Notes under the pieces: generated by a model
Told to the model about the DNA's origin: nothing
The model's database searches: none
What the model saw: only the letters and a program-made list of their open reading frames with translations
Program-made: the position numbers and the translations under genes
Shown: positions 4,470 to 6,627 of the stretch, piece by piece
Numbering within the stretch: position 1 is the first letter of the stretch
Layout of the letters: the number at the start of each line of letters is the position of its first letter
IMG/VR virus record: IMGVR_UViG_3300036652_000180
Coordinates: 1-31,948 of that record
Strand: one strand, 5' to 3'
From: a virus
Length of the DNA stretch: 31,948 nt

Positions 4470-5486
4470 ATGGCAACCAACATCATCAGCGTGCAGGACG
4501 GCCCCCGGCTTACCGTGAGCATGATGCTCAAGAGCCCCACGCTGATCCCGCGACGCATCTTGCGGAACATCGACCAGATGTTCCTGGTGCAGGACGTTCT
4601 CCGCAAGGCGAGCGACGCGCCGTCCGGCTCGGTGATCTACTTCGAGAGCACCCCGTTGTTCTCCGAGGACGACCCGGCGATCCTGGACGAGTTCGGCGAG
4701 ATCCCCGTCACGAACGGCTCGCTCGGCACCCCCATGATGGTCCGCACCGTCCGACGCGCGCTTGGCCTCCGGGTCAGCAAGCAGATGATTACGCGGAACT
4801 CCGTGGACGCCGTGCAGTTGCAGATCGACCAGATCCGCAACACGATGGTCCGCGCGTGGGAGGACGCCTTCTTCTCGGCCCTGGTCGCGAACGCCAAGGT
4901 CCAGGTCCTCACGACCGACGCGGCCTGGGGTGCCTCCGGCAGCCACATCCGCAAGGACGTGAACGGCGCGAAGTACCTCGTCAAGAACGCGGCTGCTGAC
5001 GCCGCCGGGAAGCAGAAGTTCGGCTTCGTCGCCGACACGCTCATCATCTCCACGGAGACTGAGACCGACTTCCTCGACAGCGACGAGGTTTCGACCCCGT
5101 ACGTCGGCAACATCGCGGACAAGAACCTCAAGTACACCGGCCTCCTGCCCAACAAGTTCCTCGGGCTCGATGTCATGGTGTCCTGGCGGATGAGCGTTTA
5201 CGCTCCCTCGGCCGCGCTGGTCTGTCAGCGGAAGATCATCGGCGGTCTGTCCGACGAGCGCCCGCTTCAGTCCACTCCGATGTACGGCGAGGGCAACGGC
5301 CCGAACGGCGGCCCGCGTGAGGCGTTCCGCTGTGACGTGACCCGCCAGTCCGCGATCTTCGTGGACCAGCCCCTCGCGGCTTGCTTCATCGCAGGTGTCA
5401 ACGGTGGCTCCGGCAACTTCGGCTCGAACGCCATCGCCTACAGCGCGGGCTCGGCCGAGACCTACCCGGTCAACGCCAACGCCTGA
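4470..5486 (+). CDS. major capsid protein (338 aa)
   Basis: This is the shell-forming protein. Evidence is its position after the protease/scaffold and decoration genes, its size, and sequence blocks typical of actinophage capsid proteins of the HK97-like or E-like group: MLKSPTLIPRRILR near the N-terminus, then GSVIYFESTPLFSEDDPAILDEFGEIP (quoted in part), then LGLRVSKQMITRNSVD and a helix with RNTMVRAWEDAFFSAL. The C-terminal third has the compact beta segments expected of the axial domain. The upstream leader has AGGAAAGG at 4453-4460. A strong terminator follows within 20 bases of the stop, matching the need to transcribe this gene heavily and separately. No N-terminal scaffold domain is fused to it. 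Confidence 0.9.
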   Translation: MATNIISVQDGPRLTVSMMLKSPTLIPRRILRNIDQMFLVQDVLRKASDAPSGSVIYFESTPLFSEDDPAILDEFGEIPVTNGSLGTPMMVRTVRRALGLRVSKQMITRNSVDAVQLQIDQIRNTMVRAWEDAFFSALVANAKVQVLTTDAAWGASGSHIRKDVNGAKYLVKNAAADAAGKQKFGFVADTLIISTETETDFLDSDEVSTPYVGNIADKNLKYTGLLPNKFLGLDVMVSWRMSVYAPSAALVCQRKIIGGLSDERPLQSTPMYGEGNGPNGGPREAFRCDVTRQSAIFVDQPLAACFIAGVNGGSGNFGSNAIAYSAGSAETYPVNANA

Positions 5487-5498
5487 TAGCTAGGCCCT

Positions 5499-5541
5499 GA
5501 AAGGCCCCGGTAGCGTATGATCTACGCTACCGGGGTCTTTC
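5499..5541 (+). terminator. strong intrinsic terminator after the capsid gene
   Basis: Arms 5505-5517 (CCCCGGTAGCGTA) and 5523-5535 are perfectly complementary over 13 bases around a 5-base loop. Pairing extends outward through one G-U and five more pairs (GAAAG against TCTTTC), giving about 19 pairs. A T-rich tail overlaps the 3' arm. The A-tract/T-tract symmetry would allow termination in both directions. Confidence 0.9.
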
Positions 5542-5575: not shown

Positions 5576-5977
5576 ATGCCCACTTCCACGACCAAGACCG
5601 CGCCTCCGGCTCAGGCCGACGAGGGTGCCAAGGCGGCCAACCCGGACGCCGACCTCAAGGAGTACGTTGTCACTGGTCACGCGATCACGTACCGCACCGG
5701 CAAGGGACGCGGCGACGTGGCCCGGTTCATGCGCGGCGCGCGCCTGATCCTGCACTCGACCGAGCAGCGTGTGAAGGAACTCGTCCAGTGCGGCTCGATT
5801 GCGCTCCACGAGCCCGGCAAGAAGCACATCGCGGTCACGGCCGCGTCGGTGTTCCGCAAGCTCGGCGCTGGCGACGACCCGGCCCATCCGCCGGTCCAGG
5901 ACGTGCTGCCCGTCAAGGCGCGCACGGCCAAGGCAGTGACCCCCTCGACGGCAGACAGCACGCCTGACGACGAGTGA
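5576..5977 (+). CDS. hypothetical head-tail region protein (133 aa)
   Basis: The ATG has a clear AAGGAG at 5561-5566. The first 25 residues are Thr/Ala/Pro-rich and probably disordered. A folded core (about 27-100) runs from DLKEYVVTGHAITYRTGKGRG to VTAASVFRKLG. The tail is again disordered and ends in acidic residues (DSTPDDE). The core looks like a small alpha/beta adaptor with two basic patches, and I do not recognise the family. It is the first gene after the capsid terminator and directly precedes the tRNA and the connector gene, so a role at the head-tail junction is plausible but unproven. Confidence 0.75.
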   Translation: MPTSTTKTAPPAQADEGAKAANPDADLKEYVVTGHAITYRTGKGRGDVARFMRGARLILHSTEQRVKELVQCGSIALHEPGKKHIAVTAASVFRKLGAGDDPAHPPVQDVLPVKARTAKAVTPSTADSTPDDE

Positions 5978-5984
5978 GCAAGGC

Positions 5985-6059
5985 GGCGGGGTAGAGCAGC
6001 TCGGAGTGCTCGCCAGTTTCATACTCTGGAAGTCGCAGGTTCAAATCCTGCCCCCGCCT
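5985..6059 (+). tRNA. tRNA with CAT anticodon (Met-type), CCA not encoded
   Basis: A full cloverleaf can be drawn. The acceptor stem 5985-5991/6052-6058 has seven perfect G-C pairs. The D stem GAGC/GCTC is at 5994-5997/6008-6011. The anticodon stem is 6013-6017/6025-6029, with a T-T mismatch next to the loop. The anticodon CAT is at 6020-6022, preceded by T33 and followed by A37. The T stem GCAGG/CCTGC is at 6035-6039/6047-6051 with loop TTCAAAT. The discriminator is T6059. Position 1:72 is a G-C pair and the anticodon stem lacks the three G-C pairs of initiators, so it should act in elongation (Met) or, if modified at C34, as Ile. The D and T arms look initiator-like. It lies between two head genes, probably in the same transcript. 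Confidence 0.88.
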
Positions 6060-6072
6060 CAAAGGAGACACG

Positions 6073-6627
6073 ATGGCTTACAGCACGCCCGCGATGGTTC
6101 GTAACGCCGTCAACCCGACCGGCGACGGCTCGCAGCCGAGCCCGGCCAACACCCGGACGGCGGCCGATCTCTCGGACGCCGAGCTGGCCGACTTCATCGC
6201 TGAGGCCGACGCGCAGATCGACGCCTACATCGGCGGGTACTACGCCGTGCCAGTGGCCCCCGTCGCGTCCGGGGATGTCCTCGGCGACGGCGCGGCGGTC
6301 GGCGCGATCCCGCACCCCATCGACTACTGGTCCCGCAACCTCGCGCTCTACTTCGCCACGCTGGCGATCCGCAAGTCACAGGACTTCGCCGACACCGACC
6401 CGGTGGCCCGGCGCTACAACGGCACCATCAGCGCGCTCAAGCAAATCGCCGCCGGTCAACTCCGGCTCTCTCTGCCGGACAACACGTCGGGAGCGGCTGG
6501 CGCTGGCGTGGGCAGCGCGCTCAATCCGACGTACTCCGGCAACCTCTTTGATGCCAGGGATTTCAACCTCCACCCGATCAACGAGGTCTGGCCTCTGTGG
6601 CCCGATAACCCCGGACGGCCCTGGTGA
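6073..6627 (+). CDS. head-tail connector, DUF1320-like (184 aa)
   Basis: The protein would sit at the head-tail interface under the portal. The pattern is that of DUF1320/Mu gp36-like connectors: an N-terminal helix with a start like YSTPAMVRNAV, an acidic ADLSDAELADFIAEADAQID helix, the hallmark Y-I-G-G-Y-Y turn, a YWSRNLALYFATLAIR helix, and a later helix RYNGTISALKQIAAGQL. The C-terminal 40 residues (NPTYSGNLFDARDF onward) are an extended tail. AAAGGAG at 6061-6067 is a strong ribosome site that begins immediately after the tRNA 3' end. The stop overlaps the next gene as GTGA. The family call is fairly confident. Confidence 0.85.
   Translation: MAYSTPAMVRNAVNPTGDGSQPSPANTRTAADLSDAELADFIAEADAQIDAYIGGYYAVPVAPVASGDVLGDGAAVGAIPHPIDYWSRNLALYFATLAIRKSQDFADTDPVARRYNGTISALKQIAAGQLRLSLPDNTSGAAGAGVGSALNPTYSGNLFDARDFNLHPINEVWPLWPDNPGRPW

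Follow-up and report, generated by a model that had tools for sequence, protein, structure and literature searches.

The tRNA Gene and Its Surroundings

The window analysed here is a stretch of viral DNA of 31,948 bases, whose host is probably among soil actinobacteria. ARAGORN finds a single gene in it, a tRNA-Met(CAU) on the plus strand at 5985-6060, and the sole Rfam match is RF00005 at 5985-6059, where the cloverleaf scores 56.7 bits against a gathering score of 29; Rfam thus agrees with the coordinates given in an earlier sequence-only reading of this DNA. When the whole window was dinucleotide-shuffled 200 times, ARAGORN called two tRNAs in total and none with a CAU anticodon (about 0.01 expected), and a second metagenome contig (17.9 kb), identical to the window over 9 kb, contains the same tRNA. 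The tRNA(CAU) at 5985-6059 is a real tRNA.

The gene lies in the head operon, as the sequence-only reading had placed it. On the plus strand, it follows a major capsid protein gene (4470-5486; phrog_1650 match) and a 133-amino-acid gene to which sequence and PHROG scan assign no known function (5576-5977), and it precedes a head-tail adaptor gene (6073-6627; phrog_195 match). The stop codon of the 133-amino-acid gene ends 7 nt 5' of the tRNA, and the Shine-Dalgarno sequence AAAGGAG of the adaptor gene (6061-6067, plus strand) begins one base past the tRNA 3' end (U73). The 3' end therefore does adjoin a ribosome site as first described. The further suggestion that tRNA processing competes with translation is weak, because the predicted cloverleaf excludes positions 6061-6067 and a cut past U73 would keep the entire Shine-Dalgarno sequence on the downstream mRNA.

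The acceptor stem GGCGGGG/CCCCGCC closes with G1-C72 and is followed by U8 and A9. The D arm GAGCAGCTCGGAGTGCTC (5994-6011), which is of initiator type, has the stem GAGC/GCUC with A11-U24 and the loop AGCUCGGAGU. The anticodon stem-loop (6013-6029) reads CCAGU UUCAUAC UCUGG and is followed by the variable region AAGUC and the T stem GCAGG/CCUGC. Every pair of the acceptor, D and T stems is intact. The 3' end is U73 followed by CAA, so that CCA is not encoded; these two features had been overlooked. The G-C pair at 1:72 and the T-T mismatch reported earlier are both present, the latter as U.U at 31:39. The loss of all three G-C pairs of the anticodon stem had been overstated, as 29:41 is A-U and 31:39 is U.U whereas 30:40 is still G-C.

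At least ten capsid relatives of the window phage lack the tRNA. Capsid relatives at 38-77% identity largely keep the gene order and have no tRNA at this junction, in longer contigs of the capsid group (15-51 kb) no tRNA anywhere passes the Rfam cut-off, and prophage relatives in genomes, with capsid proteins 34-41% identical, have none in the fetched flanks. Judged by this absence from its capsid relatives, the tRNA is evidently a recent insertion in one lineage. It was also considered as the remnant of an attachment site, and this was rejected: the tRNA is complete and inside the head operon, and Pfam and PHROG scans named no integrase.

Two other features of this region were seen. A GC-rich hairpin followed by CTTT can be picked out by eye past the capsid stop codon at 5507-5541, with similar hairpins 3' of the capsid gene in four relatives (L004, L005, L009, L015); the terminator scan did not list the hairpin at 5507-5541. 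In five relatives (L004, L005, L006, L009, L015), the stop codon of the 133-amino-acid homologue falls within a GAGTAG(R)CT-like, -10-like motif just 5' of the adaptor gene, and in the window (5975-5990) the tRNA occupies the place of this motif.

Initiator Marks and Class Affinity

In bacterial initiators, the 1:72 mismatch directs formylation and excludes the tRNA from the A site, and the P site requires three G-C pairs in the anticodon stem (PMC11231383). Formylation also relies, to a minor degree, on A73 and on pairs 2:71 to 4:69; A73 doubles as a Met identity element that is almost strictly conserved across all domains (PMC9976931). The window tRNA has in common with actinobacterial initiator tRNA-fMet its body, A11-U24 (the R11-Y24 pair typical of bacterial initiators), G2-C71, C3-G70 and G4-C69. 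It lacks the 1:72 mismatch, having the strong pair G1-C72, as well as the loop CUCAUAA, A73 and the set G29-C41, G30-C40 and G31-C39, which is canonical in 22/22 host actinobacterial initiators. With actinobacterial elongator tRNA-Met it shares A9, the closed 1:72 end, the loop UUCAUAC (found in 11 sampled actinobacterial elongator Met tRNAs) and the 5' acceptor strand GGCGGGGTAG, which is identical to that of an elongator tRNA-Met of a Nocardioides genome (L285). Host elongator tRNA-Met, however, has A73 and the D stem GCUC/GAGC with Y11-R24, whereas the window tRNA has U73 and GAGC/GCUC. As U73 takes away the A73 determinant, charging with Met may be weak.

Covariance models were built from 12 host initiators and 11 host elongators. 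The window tRNA scores 74.9 bits with the initiator model and 67.1 bits with the elongator model. This margin of +7.8 favours the initiator class and is intermediate: host initiators have margins of +32 or +33, the six scored initiator-type tRNAs of cultured phages +15 to +26, and elongator L285, which was among the training sequences, -27. Compared with tRNAs taken from two actinobacterial genomes, the window tRNA matches an initiator best (59/74), elongator Met coming next (52/73), and across sampled Actinobacteria the best initiator reaches 60/75 and the best elongator 57/73. The initiator-like body noticed in the sequence-only reading is thus upheld by alignment and by covariance models, and a normal elongator was not the best host match. 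Descent from an initiator-type tRNA with loss of initiator marks is supported by the margin and by the best host match.

The exact 18-nt D arm is absent from the 22 distinct host initiators collected and is present in phage tRNAs L022-L030 and in one actinobacterial tRNA-Asp (L080, positions 1492-1567 of an actinobacterial genome). R11-Y24 is therefore not exclusive to initiators in Actinobacteria. An origin from tRNA-Asp was rejected, since full-length identity to Asp tRNAs is only about 50/75.

Nearest Relatives and Origin

The sequences nearest to the window tRNA are phage tRNAs at 62-67/75, led by L022/L023 (67/75) and followed by L026 and L024; the tRNA of L314 has the same D loop and stem. 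These belong to Beephvirinae-like metagenomic phages that carry a single tRNA(CAU). The phages L023, L024 and L026 have a phrog_1357 capsid, that of L024 being 70-74% identical to capsids of Streptomyces Beephvirinae, and their tRNA immediately precedes the scaffold and capsid genes. In common with the window tRNA, these tRNAs have a closed 1:72 pair, a GGAGU D loop and a place in a head-gene operon. They differ in A1-U72 or U1-A72, in A73, in an encoded CCA and in having position 31:39 paired. They also lie 5' of the scaffold and capsid genes whereas the window tRNA lies 3' of the capsid gene, and the capsid families are unrelated. Position 1:72 is G-C in the window, A-U in L022, L024 and L026, and U-A in L314, and two T-stem pairs also covary among these five. 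Since 1:72 is always Watson-Crick yet differs among the sister tRNAs, the closed end is maintained.

The location of tRNA genes in a head operon is a known arrangement, as Abafar and the cultured Beephvirinae to which it is related (L499-L503) have 14-22 tRNAs directly upstream of their scaffold and major capsid genes, so that all of these tRNAs are probably produced together with the late operon. Among them, the arrays of Streptomyces Beephvirinae (Immanuel3, Manuel, FlowerPower, Dennebes) hold about 20 tRNAs; the tRNA-Met in these arrays lacks an initiator body and differs in its D arm.

The sequence-only reading had proposed a host initiator recast for elongation. Initiator descent stands, whereas a direct step from the host does not fit well: no initiator of the Actinobacteria sampled is closer than 60/75 and phage tRNAs reach 67/75, so direct capture from the host was rejected. 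With phage tRNAs as its nearest relatives, the window tRNA more likely came from the phage tRNA pool, and transfer from a Beephvirinae-like phage is plausible.

Initiator-Type tRNA(CAU) in Other Phages

The window tRNA, with an initiator-type D stem and a CAU anticodon in a phage gene, belongs with other phage-encoded initiator-type tRNA(CAU). In cultured actinophages, initiator-type tRNA-Met/fMet is encoded by Myrna, ScoobyDoobyDoo, Phendrix, GodonK, Wakanda, Baudelaire and Clavibacter phage CN1A. These share with the window tRNA the A11-U24 D stem, an anticodon stem that starts GCCAG with A29-U41, and a similar T arm. Unlike the window tRNA, they keep A73, have an open or weak 1:72 pair, and lie outside head operons, mostly in tRNA arrays.

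Pattern scans of viral contigs, with partly conditioned patterns and a structure-based filter, yielded 184 distinct tRNA(CAU) sequences with an initiator body. In the sample where the anticodon arm was conditioned least, 18/86 keep the canonical three G-C pairs, against 22/22 of the host actinobacterial initiators. The host initiators surveyed are from Actinobacteria, and the wider trend of change at 29:41 among viral tRNAs may stem from host composition. G1-C72 occurs in only 4/184 (the window, L189, L206 and L486). All four have a base other than A at 73, compared with 15/180 of the others (Fisher p about 1e-4, holding after collapse at 90% identity), in a post hoc test that includes the window tRNA; the association is a lead. 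L189 and L206 have the whole combination seen in the window, namely G1-C72, a weakened 31:39, UUCAUAC, a base other than A at 73 (C in both) and no encoded CCA, with margins of +5.8 and +6.5, respectively. Phages seem to have remodelled the initiator tRNA more than once.

Similar features occur further afield. Four tRNAs of Enterobacteriaceae and Aeromonas phages (L263, L265, L266, L270) are initiator-like tRNA(CAU) with U73 and an encoded CCA, and the one of phiEa21-4 among them also has a CCAGU/UCUGG stem with U31.U39, as in the window. In Arthrobacter phage Abidatro (L271, 1470-1540), the 3' half of an initiator tRNA lies near an HNH gene and is possibly an attachment-site remnant.

Proposed Function and Alternatives

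We hold, with moderate confidence, that this is a functional phage tRNA of the initiator-type tRNA(CAU) lineage that has been moved out of initiation and works as an AUG elongator. It would be transcribed within the late head operon and excised by RNase P and RNase Z, and a host enzyme would add CCA. The CAU anticodon would direct charging, most likely with Met, while the closed G-C pair at 1:72 and a base other than A at 73 would prevent formylation. EF-Tu would then deliver the charged tRNA to internal AUG codons, of which 18 genes of the window (7,316 codons) contain 107. Against this stand the initiator-typical R11-Y24, U73 and the lack of an encoded CCA, and no other phage found in this group carries the tRNA.

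Some of the same features fit a newly acquired tRNA that is decaying and has no role in translation, which we consider rather unlikely. The tRNA is confined to a single lineage, has a base other than A at 73 and no CCA, and its U.U at 31:39 could mark early decay; yet its acceptor, D and T stems have no flaw, covariation with sister tRNAs is seen at 1:72 and in T-stem pairs, and two independent phages (L189, L206) have the same combination.

Anticodon nucleases of the host bear on the elongator reading and on one of its rivals. Several VapCs cut tRNA between the anticodon stem and loop, with tRNA-fMet among their targets (PMC8522696), and phage tRNAs bear anticodon-loop changes at cut sites (PMC10264068). 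For the AUG elongator held most likely here, nuclease evasion may be a further benefit, as its altered anticodon stem-loop may protect it against host nucleases whose targets are initiator or elongator Met tRNA. The same literature, together with the initiator body and R11-Y24, would suit a tRNA that is still an initiator, its anticodon arm altered against VapC so that it replaces the cut host initiator, and the seven cultured-actinophage tRNAs, with A-U at 29:41 and a mostly open or weak 1:72, resemble such a form. For the window tRNA this is unlikely, as G1-C72, U73 and U31.U39 mean that the formylation and P-site marks are gone. Phages are described as generally avoiding tRNA-fMet where VapC targets it (PMC10264068), and the many initiator-bodied viral tRNAs suggest a closer look at this view. 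In the established view, the 1:72 mismatch bars the initiator from elongation, and phages look to close that pair naturally. The resulting set of natural variants, with C.A, A-U, U-A or G-C at 1:72, a graded loss of the three G-C pairs and A, U or C at 73, is suited to testing how phages reassign or protect AUG tRNAs.

It is also conceivable, and in our judgement improbable, that phages have repeatedly made a separate CAU class (the window, L189, L206, L486), sealed by G1-C72 and with a base other than A at 73, that does not initiate, lacks full Met identity and may be charged unusually or serve as a nuclease decoy. Quite unlikely is that the window tRNA is a decoy absorbing host tRNA nucleases, or a signal for RNase P and RNase Z to cut between the capsid and connector genes. 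Its position 7 nt past a stop codon and 1 nt before a Shine-Dalgarno sequence would suit such roles, as would the weakening of normal Met/fMet identity by U73 and G1-C72; however, relatives have the same junction without a tRNA, and sister tRNAs with intact A73 and CCA resemble ordinary charged tRNAs.

Decoding of ATA, raised in the sequence-only reading for a modified C34 and here taken as lysidine modification, would fit the CAU anticodon with U36 and A37, but was rejected as very improbable, as only 6 ATA stand against the 107 internal ATG in 7,316 codons, A73 and C4-G69, identity elements of bacterial tRNA-Ile (PMC9976931), are replaced by U73 and by G4-C69 as in Met tRNAs, and the presumed host Ile2 CAU tRNA matches at only 47/71.
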